64,000 bases of DNA from Alphaproteobacteria bacterium (GTDB lineage: Bacteria > Pseudomonadota > Alphaproteobacteria > Rickettsiales > SXRF01). Of the stretch, positions 31,355 through 45,815 are shown piece after piece. The DNA is taken from assembly GCA_025360605.1 (NCBI GenBank), contig JANYBV010000028.1, forward strand, positions 1 to 64,000. The letters run 5' to 3'. A program made the position numbers and the translations under genes. Every line of letters starts with the position of its first letter. Within the stretch, counting starts at the first letter, position 1. The notes under the pieces were generated by a model. The model was not told the DNA's origin. It was given only the letters and a program-made list of their open reading frames with translations, and ran no database searches.

Positions 31355-31660
31355 TTATACAGCCGAAGCAAATATCTGGTCAAATTTTGAAATAGTAAGA
31401 ATTTTATCCACCTGTCCCTGCGCGCCCTGTAATGAAATCGGAATATCTTTTTTCAGGCATTCATCGCGCAGGAGAAGGAGCATACCAAGGCCTGAGGAGT
31501 CGATAAACTCAACGCCTGTGAGATTGACGGTCAGTGAAAGGCAATCGTTAGTTTCTAATAGTTCAATAATCTGTTTGAATTTCTGATTGTGGTTGAAGGT
31601 AAATTGCCCTGAGATGGCAATCTCCAACACATTGGGATGCGAGATTACAGAAAATTCCAT
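31355..31660 (-). CDS. STAS-domain anti-sigma-factor antagonist
   Basis: The 101-residue single STAS domain is like SpoIIAA/RsbV. The conserved phosphorylation loop reads VEFIDSSGLGMLLLLRDE, with the acceptor serine in DSSG. It would be phosphorylated by the ATPase-domain protein encoded next to it and dephosphorylated by the PP2C response regulator two genes downstream. AAGGAG lies eight bases before ATG. It follows the soluble receptor-like gene by 12 bp. Confidence 0.9.
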   Translation of the reverse strand: MEFSVISHPNVLEIAISGQFTFNHNQKFKQIIELLETNDCLSLTVNLTGVEFIDSSGLGMLLLLRDECLKKDIPISLQGAQGQVDKILTISKFDQIFASAV

Positions 31661-31672
31661 GGTGTTACTCCT

Positions 31673-32797
31673 TCAAAAAAGTTCAACGTTATCATCTATT
31701 TTATCTGCTAATATAGCTACATCTTGTTTGTTTTCTAGAGGATTACCCGCAAGGCTGTTTTTGAACATCTGGGCGAATTCCCACAGTTTGAATTGTTCTG
31801 TGATCGCGGTGGCAAGATTTTTATCGGTGCCCAGTTGCGAAAGTTCGGGGATAGCACGCTCGCTTTCCGTTTTAAGTTTTTCAATCGTTTGCTGCATGTG
31901 TGATAATAAATTGACGCTGTTATCAATATATTGCGTGGTACGGTCCTGAAACTGCATACCGACCACCATACCGGATATGGTTTTGGCTAATTCATCCGTA
32001 GCTTTGGCGGTAGTGTTTAGCACACCGCTGAAATTAGTGTTCTGACGAAGCAGGCTGTCCATGAGTAAGGTCAATTTTTCCTGTGCCAGAATATTGCTGC
32101 TCATATCGATCGTGGCAACTTCCTGAAGCGTATTATAACCGGCACGCACGCTTTGCGTAACATTTGTAATTCTTTCGCGCATGTTTTTGGAAAGATTACT
32201 GATTTGTGACGATACTTGCTTTACTTCATGGGCAACCACACCAAAGCTTTTTCCAGCTTCTCCGGCACGTACTGATTCAATGGTGGCGTTGAGAGCCAGT
32301 AAGTTGGCTTGTTTGTTAATGGTCTGGATATCTTTGACGAATGATTCGATGGAGGTAAGATTTTGCATAGCCTCATCCAATTGATAAACCATGCTTATCG
32401 CTTGTTTTGATACGATAAGAATTTGTTGCATGGAATCGCCGAGCGTCTTTGAAAAAAGATCGGTAAATTCTTTCAGAGAGATACGCTGATCGCCCATTTC
32501 AAGAAATCCCGCCATGTCGATGATCTTTTTAACCTGATCGCTTTGGGCATTTGCTCCCTTGGCCAGATCCAAAAACTGGTCGGAGAGTGCTTTGGTCGAT
32601 GTTTCCACAAGTACTGCTGTTTTAGGCAGCTGATTATTAAGTACGTTGATCGCGTGAGAGTAGGTTTCGATGGTGGATATCCAACGTGTTAGCAACAGTG
32701 CTATGCTATCTGATTGTGTCGCCTTGCCATCACCATTGATCGCGCCGTTGGTATTCTCTGCGGGCGTGTGCATATCGTTATGGTTTGCTAAGAGCAT
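31673..32797 (-). CDS. Soluble methyl-accepting chemotaxis protein-like signalling protein
   Basis: The 374-residue cytoplasmic protein has no membrane helix. The receptor hairpin tip is recognisable in NATIESVRAGEAGKSFGVVAHEVKQVSSQ, flanked by long helices, with a GMQFQDRTTQYIDN motif near the C-terminus. It would dock to CheA/CheW or act as a decoy signalling body. ATG 32797 is chosen because AGGAAGG lies six bases upstream and it overlaps the cheB end by only 20 bases; the frame is open to 32869. It ends with NVELF, similar to the CheD terminus. The STAS gene follows. Confidence 0.85.
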   Translation of the reverse strand: MLLANHNDMHTPAENTNGAINGDGKATQSDSIALLLTRWISTIETYSHAINVLNNQLPKTAVLVETSTKALSDQFLDLAKGANAQSDQVKKIIDMAGFLEMGDQRISLKEFTDLFSKTLGDSMQQILIVSKQAISMVYQLDEAMQNLTSIESFVKDIQTINKQANLLALNATIESVRAGEAGKSFGVVAHEVKQVSSQISNLSKNMRERITNVTQSVRAGYNTLQEVATIDMSSNILAQEKLTLLMDSLLRQNTNFSGVLNTTAKATDELAKTISGMVVGMQFQDRTTQYIDNSVNLLSHMQQTIEKLKTESERAIPELSQLGTDKNLATAITEQFKLWEFAQMFKNSLAGNPLENKQDVAILADKIDDNVELF

Positions 32798-33857
32798 ATG
32801 AACCTTCCTGTGCCTTACAGAGTGCAAGAATTTCTTTAGGAATTTCCAGTAAGGGCAGCTGTTTCTCAACAGCGCCTAACGTAAATGCTGCTTTGGGCAT
32901 TCCGTATACGGTGCAGCTTGCTTCGCTTTCGCCGATAGTGGCGGCTCCGGCCTTACGCAATTTCAGCAGGCCCTTGGCTCCATCTTGTCCCATGCCGGTA
33001 AGGATGACACCTATCACTTTTTTGTGGCGAATCTGTGCTACGGATTCAAATAACACATCCACAGAAGGCCGGTGGCCGGACACGAGCGGTTCAGACGATA
33101 GGTGACAATACATTTTTTCTGCTTTCTGCTTGATCTCCAGATGGTAATTACCAGCGGCGATGTACACGTTGCCTGCTTGTATAGGTTGGTTGTGAAACGC
33201 TTCATGTACTTTCATCGCGCATAATCCGTCCATGCGAGCGGCAAACGAGGCAGTAAAGACCTCTGGCATATGTTGGGTAATGACAATTGGAGGGCTGTTA
33301 GCGGGCATTCTTATCAGTATTTCTCGGATGGCTTCAACCCCTCCGGTAGAAGCACCAATGGCAATCAGTTGGCTGGTATTGATGCCTTTAAACGGGACAA
33401 TTAAGGAGCCGGACTGCTGCAGCATATGCCTGTTCCCCGGAGCCATGCGCTTGATGAAAGCTGCTTGCTTTACCTTGTATACCAGCTCTTCTTTAAAGAG
33501 TTCAAAGGCTTTGCCTTCAAGGGTTTTGGGTTTGGTAATATAATCAACTGCGCCCGTTTCAAGGGCACGAATGGTGGTGTCCGCACCCCTACTGGTCAGG
33601 GTGGAAGCCATGATGACGGGCATGGGGCGCAGCGTCATGATTTTTTCAAGGAAGGAGATGCCATCCATTTTCGGCATTTCAACATCAAGTGTGATCAGAT
33701 CCGGGTTGAGCTGCTTGATTTTTTCACGTGCATCATAGGGATCTTCGGCGGTGCCCACGACTTCAATAGAAGGGTCAGCCGAAAGGATGGCAGTAAAAAG
33801 CTCGCGGATGGATGCGGAATCGTCCACAATAATAACTCTGGTTTTAGGCATAATCAA
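32778..33857 (-). CDS. cheB: Chemotaxis response regulator protein-glutamate methylesterase
   Basis: CheB removes methyl groups from, and deamidates, receptors when phosphorylated by CheA. The 359 residues contain a receiver domain (VIIVDDSASIRE, phospho-acceptor Asp58 in LITLDVEMP), a linker, and a C-terminal methylesterase domain with the serine triad Ser170 (IAIGASTGG), His196 (VITQHMPE) and Asp292 (LTGMGQDGAKG). The start overlaps the cheD stop by four bases (ATGA), and the end overlaps the next gene by 20 bases. An internal ATG at 33851 is equally possible. Confidence 0.96.
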   Translation of the reverse strand: MIMPKTRVIIVDDSASIRELFTAILSADPSIEVVGTAEDPYDAREKIKQLNPDLITLDVEMPKMDGISFLEKIMTLRPMPVIMASTLTSRGADTTIRALETGAVDYITKPKTLEGKAFELFKEELVYKVKQAAFIKRMAPGNRHMLQQSGSLIVPFKGINTSQLIAIGASTGGVEAIREILIRMPANSPPIVITQHMPEVFTASFAARMDGLCAMKVHEAFHNQPIQAGNVYIAAGNYHLEIKQKAEKMYCHLSSEPLVSGHRPSVDVLFESVAQIRHKKVIGVILTGMGQDGAKGLLKLRKAGAATIGESEASCTVYGMPKAAFTLGAVEKQLPLLEIPKEILALCKAQEGSYALSKP

Positions 33858-38928: not shown

Positions 38929-39693
38929 CTAATTTATGGTTTCTTTGATGGTTCGTAAATAAATGGGCTGCAACAACCTTGCATTGCGGCCGAGTAATTT
39001 GCCGAGCGCGGTCATTTGCGCCTTGGACAAAGCCATAGTCGACTTCATGATGCGCCATTCGACACCCTCGGTGCAGGGCGGCCATGAAAGCGAGCCGGAA
39101 TAGGCATAATAGCCACGTTTTTTCGGGAGTAGGTCCTCTGGATTAAACGCGAGGGAAACGATAGTTTTTGTCTTCGCAGGGGCTTTATCCAGAATGGTTT
39201 GCAATGCGTTTGTTCCAGTATATTCAAAATCCATAAACACCCCGACAATCAAAATTTTTCCTGCACTGTCACGGTGGATGAGATGTATTTCGGCAGGATA
39301 TATTTTACCGACCACCTCGTGTTCAGCAGGGGTGTGGATGCGTATTTCTTCGAGTGTATAGACGTGCCCATGATCGGAGACCGTTCCGCCATTTTTCATG
39401 GTGATGACCACCGTCCGGTCTTTCTTTTCGATATGCATCGACGTTTTATGGTAGTGAAAATTTAAGTCCGCCATCGCCGATTTGGTGGTTTCACCGATGC
39501 CCACAGGGGACTGATTCTGCCCAGTGTCACATGTAATAAAATCGGGAGTGAGGGTTCCCCATCCTTCGTCGTCATTGCCGCCGCCCATATAGCCCCATAT
39601 CACCTGCGGGCTTTTACTGTCCGCCGCAGCGTGGGCGCCGGCGGGCATCAATAGCAAGGCAGACAACATCAGGCGTGTAATGCTTGGGGGCAT
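38929..39693 (-). CDS. Exported alpha-carbonic-anhydrase-like protein lacking one zinc histidine
   Basis: The 254-residue protein begins at ATG 39693 (signal peptide MPPSITRLMLSALLLMPAGAHA), with CGGAG six bases before it. Family blocks: WGTLTPDFITCDTGQNQSPVGI, VYTLEEIRIHTPAEH, AEIHLIHRD and GSLSWPPCTEGVEW. In active alpha-CAs the first pair of zinc ligands is H-x-H; here it reads R-I-H, so the first histidine is arginine. The usual threonine before the PP is changed too (S-W). Two of three ligands remain, so hydration activity is doubtful. It sits between cheW and the receptor gene on the same strand. Confidence 0.8.
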   Translation of the reverse strand: MPPSITRLMLSALLLMPAGAHAAADSKSPQVIWGYMGGGNDDEGWGTLTPDFITCDTGQNQSPVGIGETTKSAMADLNFHYHKTSMHIEKKDRTVVITMKNGGTVSDHGHVYTLEEIRIHTPAEHEVVGKIYPAEIHLIHRDSAGKILIVGVFMDFEYTGTNALQTILDKAPAKTKTIVSLAFNPEDLLPKKRGYYAYSGSLSWPPCTEGVEWRIMKSTMALSKAQMTALGKLLGRNARLLQPIYLRTIKETIN

Positions 39694-39752
39694 ATCGTCT
39701 CCGCAGATAAGAGGGCTAACCCAAGGATTATAAGGGGCGTGGAGCATCATTT

Positions 39753-40268
39753 TCAAGCCTTTACACCAGTGGCGGCATCCAGCAGGTGAACTTCACCTGA
39801 TAGCAGCACTTCAATATCGAGCAATACGACCATACGTCCTTCAACGGCGATCAGGCCGCTGACAAATTTTTCATTCAGGCCGGTGCTGGTTTCCGGCGAT
39901 GGTTTGATATCGTCGCTGCCGACGGTTAGAATGTCCGATACCGTGTCGCACAGAATGCCCAGCGTGCGGCTACCCACGGCGATGATGACCACAACGTTTT
40001 TCTCGTTCGCATCGGTCAGTCCGCTGCCAAAGCGTGCGCGCAAATCAAAAATAGGGATGATGATACCGCGAAGGTTTAGCACACCACGCAGATATTCCGG
40101 TGTATTGGGTAAACGCGTGGTTTCCGACCAGCCTTTGACCTCACGCACCATCATGATGTCGACACCAAATTCTTCCTTGCCGACAGTAAAGGTCAGAAAT
40201 TGCATGGTCGACGAGGAGGCGACAGGAAGGAGAGGGGCGGTTGATTGTTGCAATGTTTGTGTGCTCAT
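39753..40268 (-). CDS. cheW: Chemotaxis coupling protein CheW
   Basis: CheW links receptors to CheA. The protein is about 171 residues with a short Ser/Pro-rich N-terminus and one CheW SH3-like domain: FLTFTVGKEEFGVDI, LRGVLNLRGIIIPIFDLR, LGILCDTVSDIL. ATG 40268 (MSTQTLQQ) has AAAGGA seven bases upstream, better than the upstream start at 40283, which would overlap cheA. It follows cheA by 11 bp. Confidence 0.95.
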   Translation of the reverse strand: MSTQTLQQSTAPLLPVASSSTMQFLTFTVGKEEFGVDIMMVREVKGWSETTRLPNTPEYLRGVLNLRGIIIPIFDLRARFGSGLTDANEKNVVVIIAVGSRTLGILCDTVSDILTVGSDDIKPSPETSTGLNEKFVSGLIAVEGRMVVLLDIEVLLSGEVHLLDAATGVKA

Positions 40269-40279
40269 ACGAGGTCCTT

Positions 40280-42301
40280 TCATGCTGCTTGGAGTTCTTT
40301 GTCCGGCGTTGGTTCTGGTGGCATATCATCATGCGCCAGAAGGCCATTGGTCATGCGCCGTAGTCCGACGATATCCAGAATCAGCGATACTTTACCGTCA
40401 CCCAATATGGTGGCACCCGATACACCCTCGACCGGATCTGCGTTGTCTTCCAGTGTTTTAATCACTACCTGTTGCTGGCCTACGAGTTCATCAACGACAA
40501 GCCCGATTTGTTCATGGCCATTTTCTACGAGCACGACAAGGCCTTTGCTCGCATCGCGCACGGCATTTTTAATGCTGAATAAACGATAGAGATACAGGAT
40601 GGGAACAAAATTACCGCGCACGTTGATGACGGACTGGCCATCGGCAATATCGCGGACTTCTTCGGCTTTAGGGCGGAGGGTCTCGATAATATTGGCAATG
40701 GGTATGATGTAAAATTCGCTGGCCACACGTACGATCATTCCATCGAGTATGGCCAGCGTCAGCGGGAGAGAGGTTGTAAGATGGGCGCCTTTGCCCGGTG
40801 TATTGGCCACGGTCACGGTGCCGCCAATACCTTCTATATTGCGTTTGACTACATCCATGCCTACACCGCGGCCAGAAATGCTGGTTACTGTTTCGGCGGT
40901 AGAGAAGCCGGGGGCAAAGATCAGCTGGTCGATGTCTTCCGGACTTAAATTAGCATCGGCGGTGATAAGGTGTTTTTCTTTGGCTTTGGCGAGGACTTTG
41001 TCACGGTTTATGCCTGCGCCGTCATCGCTGATTTCGATGACGATGCGCCCGCCGCGATGGGCTGCCGATAAGTGAATTGTTCCCTGCGCCGGCTTACCTT
41101 CATGTACGCGCTGTTCCGGCATTTCAATGCCATGGTCAATAGAATTGCGTATCATATGGGTGAGTGGGTCGGCCAGCTGTTCGATAATGGTTTTATCGAC
41201 CTCGGTATTTTCTCCCGACATTTCAAGGCGTATGTTTTTGCCCAGCTGACCGGATAGATCGCGCACCAGCCTTGGCATGCGCGAGAAAATGGATTTGACG
41301 GGTTGCATGCGTATCGCCATCACGGCGGCCTGTAATTCGCGGGTGTGGGTAGTCAGTTCGTTGATGCCGCCCACCAGTTCCGTATGTTCCTGAGCGATAA
41401 GAAAACGGGTTTGCATTGAGAGCATGGCCTGAATAATGACAATTTCTCCGACCATGTTGATCAGCCGGTCCACCTTATCGATATCCACGCGGATGGAGGT
41501 TGAGGCCTGCACCTGTTCCTTGGGAGCTTGTCCACCCGATGGTGTCTGTTGATGCACATCCTGTTCCGCCGCCTGTACCGTTTCGTGCTGCGGGGCTATT
41601 TCTTCCATCACGAGTTCGCATTCGTCCTCCACGAATTCAAACACTTCGGCAATCAGGCTTTTAGATTTGGTGGTAGCCAGTGTGATTTCCCAGCCGAGAT
41701 AGCTGTTCTCGCATTGCAAGGTATGCAGGTCGGGAATGCGACTGATGTCCGCTGTGATGGTGCATTCACCCATCCGCTTTAATTCGCGGAGCAACAAAAG
41801 AGGATCACTGCCATGGGCAATCATTGACGGATGCGGAATAAACCTGATTCGGTACAGTGTAAGACTTTCGGTTGTTTTAACTGTATCTTTGTCTGATTTT
41901 TTAACGGGAGCAGGCATGTTACAGATTTTGGCAAGTTCCTGAGCGACATCCTCTCCCAAACCATCGGGCAGGGCACTGCCGTCTCTGGCGGCATTCACCA
42001 TGGTAAGCACAATGTCCTTGGATTTAAGCAACGTGTCGATGACGTGCCGGCTGGGAGCAATTTTGCCCTCACGCATCTGGTCAAGCAGTGCTTCCAGAAT
42101 ATGTGTAAAGTTGGCAATACTGCTGAAACCAAAAGCACCCGCTCCGCCTTTAATTGAATGCGCGCAGCGGAATATAGCATTAAGTTCTTCGGTATCCGCA
42201 CTGGCTTCATCCAGATTCATCAGGCTATCTTCCATATTGGAAAGAAGCTCCAGACATTCTGTGATGTAGGTGGATTTGAACTGCTGTAATTCGTTATCCA
42301 T
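40280..42301 (-). CDS. cheA: Chemotaxis histidine kinase CheA
   Basis: CheA autophosphorylates in response to receptors and passes phosphate to CheY and CheB. It is about 673 residues: Hpt domain (phospho-His48 in FRCAHSIKGGAGAFG), a linker with a CheY-binding-like segment, dimerisation helices, the GHKL kinase domain (THMIRNSIDHGIEMPEQR, ISDDGAGINRDKVL, SGRGVGMDVV) and a C-terminal CheW-like regulatory domain (FVPILYLYRLF). ATG 42301 (MDNELQQF) is chosen over the upstream in-frame ATG at 42316. It overlaps nothing and follows cheY by 11 bp. Confidence 0.96.
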   Translation of the reverse strand: MDNELQQFKSTYITECLELLSNMEDSLMNLDEASADTEELNAIFRCAHSIKGGAGAFGFSSIANFTHILEALLDQMREGKIAPSRHVIDTLLKSKDIVLTMVNAARDGSALPDGLGEDVAQELAKICNMPAPVKKSDKDTVKTTESLTLYRIRFIPHPSMIAHGSDPLLLLRELKRMGECTITADISRIPDLHTLQCENSYLGWEITLATTKSKSLIAEVFEFVEDECELVMEEIAPQHETVQAAEQDVHQQTPSGGQAPKEQVQASTSIRVDIDKVDRLINMVGEIVIIQAMLSMQTRFLIAQEHTELVGGINELTTHTRELQAAVMAIRMQPVKSIFSRMPRLVRDLSGQLGKNIRLEMSGENTEVDKTIIEQLADPLTHMIRNSIDHGIEMPEQRVHEGKPAQGTIHLSAAHRGGRIVIEISDDGAGINRDKVLAKAKEKHLITADANLSPEDIDQLIFAPGFSTAETVTSISGRGVGMDVVKRNIEGIGGTVTVANTPGKGAHLTTSLPLTLAILDGMIVRVASEFYIIPIANIIETLRPKAEEVRDIADGQSVINVRGNFVPILYLYRLFSIKNAVRDASKGLVVLVENGHEQIGLVVDELVGQQQVVIKTLEDNADPVEGVSGATILGDGKVSLILDIVGLRRMTNGLLAHDDMPPEPTPDKELQAA

Positions 42302-42312
42302 AAATGTGCCTG

Positions 42313-42681
42313 TCAACCCCCGCAGACTTTATTGATGACCTGAATTAATTTTTCAGGATTAAAGGGCTTGATGATCCATCCGGTAGCGCCAGCGGATTTT
42401 CCTTCCATTTTTTTATTATCATCTCCTTCGGTGGTTAGCATAAGGATGGGGGTGAATTTATAACTTGCGTTGTTGCGCAGATTGCGGATCAGCTCGAAGC
42501 CATTCATATTTGGCATATTGAGATCGGTAATGACGATATCGACAGGGTTGTTGCCTAATTTATCAATGGCGTCCTTTCCGTCTTCTGCTTCAATCACTTC
42601 AAAGCCCGCACCTTTTAATGTGAACGACACCATGTCGCGCATCGTTTTTGAATCGTCTACTGCTAGCGCGCGCTTGCTCAT
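42313..42681 (-). CDS. cheY: Chemotaxis response regulator CheY
   Basis: This is a single receiver domain of 122 residues that binds the flagellar switch when phosphorylated. It has the acidic pair in LAVDDSKTMRDM, phospho-acceptor Asp53 in VITDLNMPNMNGFE, the conserved Thr in MLTTEGDD and Lys in WIIKPFNPEKL. Its ATG overlaps the stop of the preceding interrupted STAS gene (GTATGA), so translation may be coupled to it. Confidence 0.95.
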   Translation of the reverse strand: MSKRALAVDDSKTMRDMVSFTLKGAGFEVIEAEDGKDAIDKLGNNPVDIVITDLNMPNMNGFELIRNLRNNASYKFTPILMLTTEGDDNKKMEGKSAGATGWIIKPFNPEKLIQVINKVCGG

Positions 42682-42989
42682 ACGCTTTCCTTTCCATCGG
42701 CCACATTGTCTCTGAAGAGGACGTTGAAGGCTAAATTAAGGCCAAGGTCATCCACTGCCTGTATCAGTGCCGGAGTGGGTGAAGTGAGGCTGAGTTTTTT
42801 ATAGTCAGTGCCCATAGTTTTAATCAGGCTGAGCAAAAACTAGATTCCTGGAGTCGAGATACGTTCAATCGCCGAGCTATCCAGCGTGATATGATCCTGA
42901 ACGGTCATTCGCTCCAGAAGGGTGGACTGGAGAACTCCGCAGGCGTTGATGTCCATCACTGCGGGAAGCGGTATTGCGGTTGAATCCAT
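42678..42989 (-). pseudogene. STAS-domain gene before cheY, interrupted by an in-frame TAG
   Basis: From ATG 42989 (AGGGA eight bases upstream) a 104-codon frame runs to TGA 42678, overlapping the cheY ATG. Codon 50 is TAG (42840-42842), in DSSAIERISTPGI-stop-FLLSLIKTMGTDY, exactly where STAS/MlaB-type homologues usually carry Gln (STxxIQLLL). A single CAG-to-TAG change explains it. The frame after the TAG remains intact for 53 codons and keeps STAS-like ends (LTSPTPALIQAVDDLGLNLAF), so decay is recent, or the UAG is read through, or it is a sequencing error. Alphaproteobacterial che operons often begin with such a STAS (CheS-like) gene. Confidence 0.7.
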
Positions 42990-43193: not shown

Positions 43194-43649
43194 TTAGGCA
43201 GTAACTTCTGTTTTTCCTTCAGACTCATCAATGCGGATAATATCATCTCCCCATTCTTCAACGAGCTGTTTTTGCTGTAATTTTAATTTGTTGATGTTGT
43301 ATTCATAGGTGATGGTCACGACGAAACGTGCAATGAAACGGCATAGATAAATCATTCCCCAGCCTGCACCAGCTCCCATATACACAAACATCCAGTTTGT
43401 CGGATCAATCATAATACTTTCAATATCATAGTGCTTCATGTGAACAGCGGCTTTCATCATAGGTACCAGTGTCGGTAATGTGGCCGCCAGATTGCCGCTG
43501 CCAATGACTTTAAATACGGAACGTTTATTATCGGTGTCGGTATAAAACGCAACGATCGTAGGTAACAACGCCAATAGCAGGAAAATAAACCCTACCTGCA
43601 ATACCACGATGCCAACGAGCGAGAGGAGCAAAAATAAAACTAGTCCCAT
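43194..43649 (-). CDS. Small membrane protein partner of the pseudokinase
   Basis: I do not recognise this 151-residue protein. It has hydrophobic segments at about 2-34 (probably two tight helices) and near 88-112 (NWMFVYMGAGAGWGMIYLCRF), then a charged amphipathic C-terminus (INKLKLQQKQLVEEWGDD) that should face the cytoplasm. It starts 3 bp after the pseudokinase gene stop, so the two are co-expressed and probably act together. A weak CCGCA/TGCGG hairpin near 43160 follows and may terminate transcription before the chemotaxis promoter. Confidence 0.75.
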   Translation of the reverse strand: MGLVLFLLLSLVGIVVLQVGFIFLLLALLPTIVAFYTDTDNKRSVFKVIGSGNLAATLPTLVPMMKAAVHMKHYDIESIMIDPTNWMFVYMGAGAGWGMIYLCRFIARFVVTITYEYNINKLKLQQKQLVEEWGDDIIRIDESEGKTEVTA

Positions 43650-43652
43650 GAC

Positions 43653-45815
43653 CTACCTCGCTACCACTGTGGTGAAATAGAACGAGCCCAGCAAACATGC
43701 GTAGGCGACGAGTTTAGCAATGCGAAAACCCATTGCCATACTCTCTGCTTCCACGTTTTCTGCTGCTTCGTAGAAAGCAATGAAATTATTATTATTTTGG
43801 TAATCAATGAGTGCCTGTTGATAGCCGTTGTAATCGTTTGAGGCGTAGTCAGCGGATACGATTAGGTCTGCAATTTTAGGTATGGAACCGACTCCGGCAA
43901 GGGCCATGAGGGCTGTTTTATATTTTTTCCGTAATGAGCGGCTATGGATGTGATCCATCAGCGGCAGGGTGCGTAGCACCAGCCAGTTTGTCAGTCCGGG
44001 CAGGCGCAGGTGGCTCGCCTTGATCTGCGATGCTCCCAACAGATAAATGGCCATGACGGTTTTGTTGGTCGCCAGCATGGGCAGACCTTCCAGCTCATCT
44101 AGCCACACCTCTTTGAGTATCACAAGTTTACTGGCGATAAAAGCGGCGATATGTCGGTCAAAAGGATCGTCATTTTCCGATAATGTGGGGGCAAGGTGAT
44201 CGAGTTTGGTCAGCAGTTCGGCAAGCGTAGTAACATTTTGCGAGGCTAAGGTTGGACTGATGCAGGCCATTTCCGGATTGAGGTCATATAACACGCGTTC
44301 CAGCCCGAATCCCATGCCTGCATTGCGGATATAACTGCGCAGGCGGTCGAGCCGGACATTGAGTGCGTTGATAACAGCCGGAGTTTCATAATCTTCTTTT
44401 TCCTTTTGGAATTTGTTCTGCAATTCTATCCAGTAATTGACCATGTTGGATTCAATAAACTTGGCGAGTAATTGCAATTCCTGATGCATTTTCTTGAAAT
44501 ACAAATCAGCACACAATGAGTCCATACCATCAATATGCATTGCCAGTTGGCGGATTCTGACCGGCCCGACCGGATCAAGAAGCATAATGATATTCATGAG
44601 TGCTTCGTAGGTCTGTGTTTCATTCTTTGTGCTAAGATCGTATGCGGTGCGGCTCAGGCGGCCTACAATGTCCGATAATTCTTTGTTACGCAGCGATACC
44701 GATACCCAGTGCGAGAGCTGGTTATTATGCAGCGATGCGATCATCCGCTCCCAGTCATTACTGAACATGTGCGCTAGTTCCCGACGGGTATTGGCGTGCT
44801 TCTCATCACCAAGGTCATAGGGTCTTACCGCATCAACGGGGGTAGGTGGAGCGAGTACGTTAAACCGCTTGCCGCCGAGCCATTGCAACACCTGTTTCCC
44901 GCTCCAGCGCTCCTGTGGGTTTAAGGTGAGGGTGCCACGGAAAAAGTCGTAGAATACTTCCGGCACTTCCCTATCCTGCATTAAGGTATTATAGGCGCCA
45001 TTTCGGAAGATGGACTGGACGAATGCTTCCTGATTCATATGCGCCAGATATTCTGGGCCGTGAAGAATTTCCAATAGTACGACTGCTAGTGCATAGTAAT
45101 CCTGCGAGGTTGATCCTTCCCCTTTGGCGGTAGGCATTGCCTGAATGCGCTCGACGGATTCATAACGGAATGGTTGTGAAAAACCACACGGTTCTGCAAC
45201 GCACGGACCAAGTACAGCCATGTCGTTAATGTAGATGTTATCAGGATTGATCAACCCGTGTGAAATATCGAGATCCGAAAATTGCTGAATAGCATTTGCG
45301 AGCGGTGAGAGAATATGCTCGAAGAGAAACAGTGTATTCGCCGGTATTTTTTTTCTTTTAATGAGTTCTGATAATTTGATACCGGCTGGACGCTCATAGA
45401 AAACCACATAACGTTCGTGATTATTATTGGAAAGTCTTACGTTGCCTGCTGCAGCCACTTGTGTGATCGAGCGGTAGTCCAGCCCTTTGATTAACTTAAT
45501 GGCGCGGTAACGTTGCACTTTCCCCCAATCGCATACATGAGCATACAGCATCCGGCTGGGGATGGTGGAATCGTTTGCAGAATATGCCTTGGCGTTTTCA
45601 ACATCAAACGATTGCAGGGGTTGATTGAGATCAATGGTGTAGCGCTTTTCCAGCGTGTCAATTTCGCTGGTATCGTAGCTCGGTTGGTAGCCACGCAGAT
45701 GATCGCGGAGTTTAGCCATCAAAGGTTCGTTCGCCTTTGGTCCATCCTCGATGGCGTCCAAAGCGGCCAGCGTATTTTTCTTATCCTTAGCTGATGATGG
45801 GGTCTCAGTGACCAT
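43653..45815 (-). CDS. Membrane-anchored protein-kinase-like protein, probable pseudokinase
   Basis: The 720-residue protein has a Ser/Thr-kinase-like fold in about residues 60-330. The helix-C/catalytic-loop region reads DISHGLINPDNIYI where active kinases have HRDxKPxN, so the catalytic Asp and Lys are replaced. No DFG is visible (CVAEPCGFSQP). A DYYALAVVLLEILHG block and LNPQERWSG match the C-lobe. The middle (350-650) is alpha-helical and unassigned, and a single hydrophobic helix lies at the C-terminus (IAKLVAYACLLGSFYFTTVVA). It probably works as a scaffold or ATP-independent regulator. It follows purA, with its own extended -10 promoter. Confidence 0.82.
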   Translation of the reverse strand: MVTETPSSAKDKKNTLAALDAIEDGPKANEPLMAKLRDHLRGYQPSYDTSEIDTLEKRYTIDLNQPLQSFDVENAKAYSANDSTIPSRMLYAHVCDWGKVQRYRAIKLIKGLDYRSITQVAAAGNVRLSNNNHERYVVFYERPAGIKLSELIKRKKIPANTLFLFEHILSPLANAIQQFSDLDISHGLINPDNIYINDMAVLGPCVAEPCGFSQPFRYESVERIQAMPTAKGEGSTSQDYYALAVVLLEILHGPEYLAHMNQEAFVQSIFRNGAYNTLMQDREVPEVFYDFFRGTLTLNPQERWSGKQVLQWLGGKRFNVLAPPTPVDAVRPYDLGDEKHANTRRELAHMFSNDWERMIASLHNNQLSHWVSVSLRNKELSDIVGRLSRTAYDLSTKNETQTYEALMNIIMLLDPVGPVRIRQLAMHIDGMDSLCADLYFKKMHQELQLLAKFIESNMVNYWIELQNKFQKEKEDYETPAVINALNVRLDRLRSYIRNAGMGFGLERVLYDLNPEMACISPTLASQNVTTLAELLTKLDHLAPTLSENDDPFDRHIAAFIASKLVILKEVWLDELEGLPMLATNKTVMAIYLLGASQIKASHLRLPGLTNWLVLRTLPLMDHIHSRSLRKKYKTALMALAGVGSIPKIADLIVSADYASNDYNGYQQALIDYQNNNNFIAFYEAAENVEAESMAMGFRIAKLVAYACLLGSFYFTTVVAR

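Follow-up and report, generated by a model that had tools for sequence, protein, structure and literature searches.

Why should the first gene of an otherwise intact chemotaxis operon be interrupted by a single TAG? In the window (the whole stretch of 64,000 nucleotides that was analysed), the frame preceding cheY translates from 42989 to 42678 of the minus strand as MDSTAIPLPAVMDINACGVLQSTLLERMTVQDHITLDSSAIERISTPGI*FLLSLIKTMGTDYKKLSLTSPTPALIQAVDDLGLNLAFNVLFRDNVADGKESV* (asterisks are stops), which reads MDSTAIPL...STPGI*FLLSL...GKESV*. The TAG at codon 50 (42842-42840) is its one internal stop, and the rest of the frame is open. The first-pass annotation had described a frame open save for codon 50 (42840-42842), its strand unstated, whose end overlaps the cheY ATG. 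Translation bears out both points and places the frame on the minus strand, where its terminal TGA (42680-42678) shares an ATGA (42678-42681) with the cheY start codon (42681-42679). The sequence pattern at the TAG site occurs once in a search of the whole assembly, and a second copy of the gene is therefore absent from it. The features of the locus are listed in Table 1.

Table 1. Features of the interrupted gene and of the che operon that it opens
Feature	Position	Strand	Basis
CheS-like gene for a STAS-domain protein, opening the che operon, broken at codon 50	42678..42989	-	Translation, Pfam STAS_2, operon position
In-frame TAG, codon 50; Gln in relatives, mostly CAG	42840..42842	-	Translation and homologue comparison
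Candidate Shine-Dalgarno-like AGGGATAT preceding the STAS start codon	42994..43001	-	Sequence reading
cheY (122 aa), whose ATG shares bases with the STAS stop	42313..42681	-	Pfam Response_reg
Candidate Shine-Dalgarno-like GGAAAGGA of cheY, within the 3' end of the STAS gene		-	Sequence
cheA (678 aa; Hpt, dimerisation, ATPase and CheW domains)	40280..42316	-	Domain matches
cheW (176 aa)	39753..40283	-	Domain match

To establish what the interrupted gene encodes, we masked the stop as X and compared the translation with protein families. It matches Pfam STAS_2 (PF13466) over residues 8-84 with 39.8 bits (cut-off 29.2, E = 5e-10), and Pfam STAS with 26.8 bits (cut-off 22.6). With the TAG read as glutamine, AlphaFold2 returns a model with a pLDDT of 89.4 and a pTM of 0.80, in which strands and helices alternate as expected for STAS and residue 50 falls within the helix spanning residues 46-61. 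By its domain matches, the interrupted gene is one for a STAS_2 protein, and the predicted STAS-like fold is confident when the TAG stands for glutamine. A tblastn search, again with codon 50 masked as X, reaches E = 1e-22 to the closest relative, and the sequence homology on either side of the TAG is far beyond chance.

The che-operon STAS family carries the motif S/T-T-P-(C/G)-x-Q at the position where SpoIIAA-type proteins have DSSG. A profile built from 37 members of the family matches solved STAS proteins of the SpoIIAA/RsbV type with E-values from 5e-8 to 1.5e-4, and the domain is thus shared with anti-sigma factor antagonists (PDB 4hyl, 6m36, 1th8). No gene for an anti-sigma partner was recognised adjoining the che-operon STAS gene. 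Among named proteins, CheS from the che clusters of rhizobia comes closest, a likeness based on domain and operon position. CheS of Sinorhizobium meliloti, which consists of a STAS domain only and is encoded in a che cluster, binds CheA and boosts the sink function of CheY1 (PMC12654446, PMC4214558). Both proteins are small, have the STAS domain alone and belong to an alphaproteobacterial che cluster, here directly before cheY-cheA. Unlike its S. meliloti counterpart, the present gene is broken by a stop codon, and its operon has one cheY beside cheA, whereas CheS was characterised with two CheYs.

The window encodes a second STAS protein (31361-31672, minus strand), which belongs with the SpoIIAA/RsbV anti-sigma antagonists, has a DSSG motif and follows a soluble protein with an MCP signal domain (31676-32875). 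The two genes may form a chemoreceptor-linked anti-sigma module (31361-32875, minus strand). We considered this second protein as a backup copy of the interrupted one and rejected the idea, as it is a classic anti-sigma antagonist and has no BLAST similarity to the interrupted STAS protein.

The expectation of glutamine at codon 50, already voiced in the first-pass annotation, holds when homologues are compared. Of 50 homologues, 46 carry Gln at this residue and the other 4 Glu (CAG in 33, CAA in 13, GAA in 3 and GAG in 1), and none has a stop at the position. The STAS frame is also open, without a stop, in both other genomes of the same genus. Since CAG is the commonest codon at the site and is preferred in the long open reading frames (ORFs) of this genome (7,391 CAG against 3,459 CAA), one transition from CAG to TAG explains what is observed. 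We looked for signs of long decay in two ways, and neither revealed any. The mean identity to outgroup members is 0.298 for the copy in the window, and 0.298 and 0.293 for the sister copies. Matches to the closest congener amount to 22 of 45 residues before the stop and 19 of 38 after it. Neither half of the protein is unusually diverged, which indicates that the lesion is either recent or a sequence or assembly error.

To assess the operon context, we collected 80 loci with a close relative of cheY and counted the 68 that had an adjacent cheA and enough upstream sequence. A STAS gene lies immediately before cheY in 66 of these 68 cheY-cheA operons, in agreement with the proposed place of the interrupted gene as the first of a che operon. 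The cheY, cheA and cheW genes downstream of it are all intact.

We then asked whether UAG could be read as a sense codon in this organism. The gene for release factor 1 (prfA) is intact (TIGR00019, 502.8 bits against a cut-off of 423). The genome yields 46 Rfam tRNA matches, and ARAGORN on the sequence covering them returned 42 distinct tRNAs. The first-pass annotation had suggested looking for a tRNA with a CUA anticodon; none is found among these 42 distinct sequences, a list from which intact tRNA-Tyr, tRNA-Trp and tRNA-Asp are missing. Two of the Rfam matches are weak, one being a tRNA-Thr remnant and the other an apparently 5'-truncated tRNA-Tyr. The former, of tRNA-Thr(CGT), lies beside the intact gene; the latter resembles tRNA-Tyr, has had its 5' acceptor strand replaced and sits at the end of a contig (L140 1068-1133 and L148 18410-18476; contigs C57 and C29 of this genome, G000). 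These partial copies may possibly be attachment sites of integrated elements.

The use of TAG across the genome was surveyed in stretches that together cover 1.47 Mb, or 55% of the genome. TAG terminates 324 of 1,359 ORFs in this sample (approximately 24%). Within the first 0.68 Mb, a single TAG separates two coding-like frames no more often (14 of 680) than a single TAA (22 of 937) or TGA (12 of 1,077) does. We also compared ORFs from 0.72 Mb of a congener with the 1.47 Mb of the present genome, which after overlap filtering gave 467 independent matches and 127,096 aligned residues. The TAG of the STAS gene is the only clean in-frame stop among these 467 matches, so that the search for further in-frame TAGs that had been proposed, run on about half of the genome, produced no other clean case. 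Each of the other apparent in-frame stops that was checked, by comparison with the longest ORF overlapping it, proved to lie in a shadow frame of a longer gene or at an alignment end. Taken together, the intact release factor, the lack of a CUA tRNA in the list, the ordinary use of TAG as a stop and the absence of another clean TAG from the sample argue against reassignment or a dedicated suppressor tRNA, both of which are strongly disfavoured. In the reverse search, a congener locus (genome G002, L167, around 9639) is 84% identical over 350 residues to an ORF of L147 and may contain a single TAA (ATSMLA*FVFKEN), possibly a nonsense lesion; this locus was left out of the evidence.

The first-pass annotation had noticed no other internal TAG in the major genes of the window. 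This needs a correction in that a TAG at 43653-43655 separates two long in-frame ORFs of 720 and 151 residues (43194-45815, minus strand), the first of which has a weak protein-kinase-like match below the cut-off. We rejected recoding at this position because the closest congener likewise has two separate matches, as expected for an ordinary gene boundary.

The most probable explanation (about 90%) is therefore a single nonsense codon that is either a recent loss-of-function mutation, fixed or present at strain level, or a wrong base in the consensus. Two of the options originally listed, a very recent pseudogene and a sequence error, thus stay, while readthrough and reassignment are unsupported given the intact release factor, the failure to find a CUA tRNA and the share of TAG among stops. 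A genuine nonsense mutation of recent date, whether fixed in the strain or polymorphic there, would make the STAS gene a young pseudogene, and has an even chance of being correct. It is supported by the single step that separates TAG from the common CAG, by the release factor and the standard genetic code, and by the integrity of the other che genes; the conserved position of the gene in relatives and the lack of any other clean nonsense lesion in the sampled genome weigh against it. The second form of the same explanation, in which an error of sequencing or assembly or a base from a minority strain entered the consensus and the gene is intact in the living population, is slightly less probable. 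In favour of an error are an unblemished frame before and after the stop, the lack of a second lesion and a divergence no greater than that of the sister copies; one base accounts for the TAG, in a gene that is nearly universal at this position of the operon. Against it, wrong bases in the consensus are uncommon in short-read assemblies, and no second assembly of the species that could have given positive evidence was found in the collections searched. The division between these two forms is close to even and reflects general expectation rather than data. The nonsense-codon explanation as a whole has its own difficulties: with a STAS gene before cheY in nearly all related operons, its outright loss would be unusual for the lineage, the base is known from the consensus of one assembly, and the tRNA list has the gaps mentioned above.

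The remaining explanations keep the gene functional despite the TAG, and all of them are improbable. Readthrough of UAG, at a low level or programmed, with tRNA-Gln or another near-cognate tRNA, could supply small amounts of the STAS protein as a form of expression control. In its favour, the protein is conserved in both halves and the genome has a tRNA-Gln(CUG) that could weakly misread UAG. Against it, no relative has a stop at the site, the release factor is intact and UAG is followed by a U, which in Escherichia coli is generally held to favour efficient termination. We consider such readthrough very unlikely, and still a little more so its regulated form, in which the TAG is real and termination efficiency sets the level of a STAS modulator of CheA in one strain. 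Less plausible again is a split gene, where translation stops at the TAG and re-initiates at a TTG two codons further on, so that two half-proteins reconstitute the STAS domain. An AGGA nine bases before this TTG would fit re-initiation, but the arrangement is found in no relative, and the break would fall inside the predicted helix 46-61, a poor place for a split. Equally marginal is the idea that UAG has been reassigned across the genome or is decoded by a dedicated amber suppressor tRNA. The single site is all that speaks for it; the frequent use of TAG at ORF ends, the intact release factor, the failure to find a CUA tRNA and the lack of any excess of in-frame TAGs all oppose it.

If the preferred reading of a single nonsense codon is correct, its simplest origin would be the transition of a CAG glutamine codon to TAG, which probably happened recently. 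A real TAG would cause ordinary termination by release factor 1 and leave a fragment of 49 residues. According to the predicted structure, this fragment would be devoid of most of helix 46-61 and of all later elements, would not form a functional STAS protein and is presumably inactive. The cheY gene is likely still expressed. The core chemotaxis pathway has probably outlived the loss of the STAS modulator, given that cheY, cheA and cheW are undamaged and that cheY is preceded by a ribosome-binding-like site of its own.

Finding one nonsense codon in a single conserved gene is ordinary, and beyond annotation it carries little weight: automated pipelines would miss the gene that opens the che operon or mark it as a pseudogene. 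Should the TAG allele be real, the strain would be a natural null for the CheS-like gene, with cheY, cheA and cheW all intact, and could be compared with its congeners to learn what part the STAS modulator plays in chemotaxis. Further along the minus strand, a eukaryotic-type (alpha) carbonic anhydrase is encoded at 38929-39756, with cheW on one side and the gene for a large MCP containing a PAS domain on the other.
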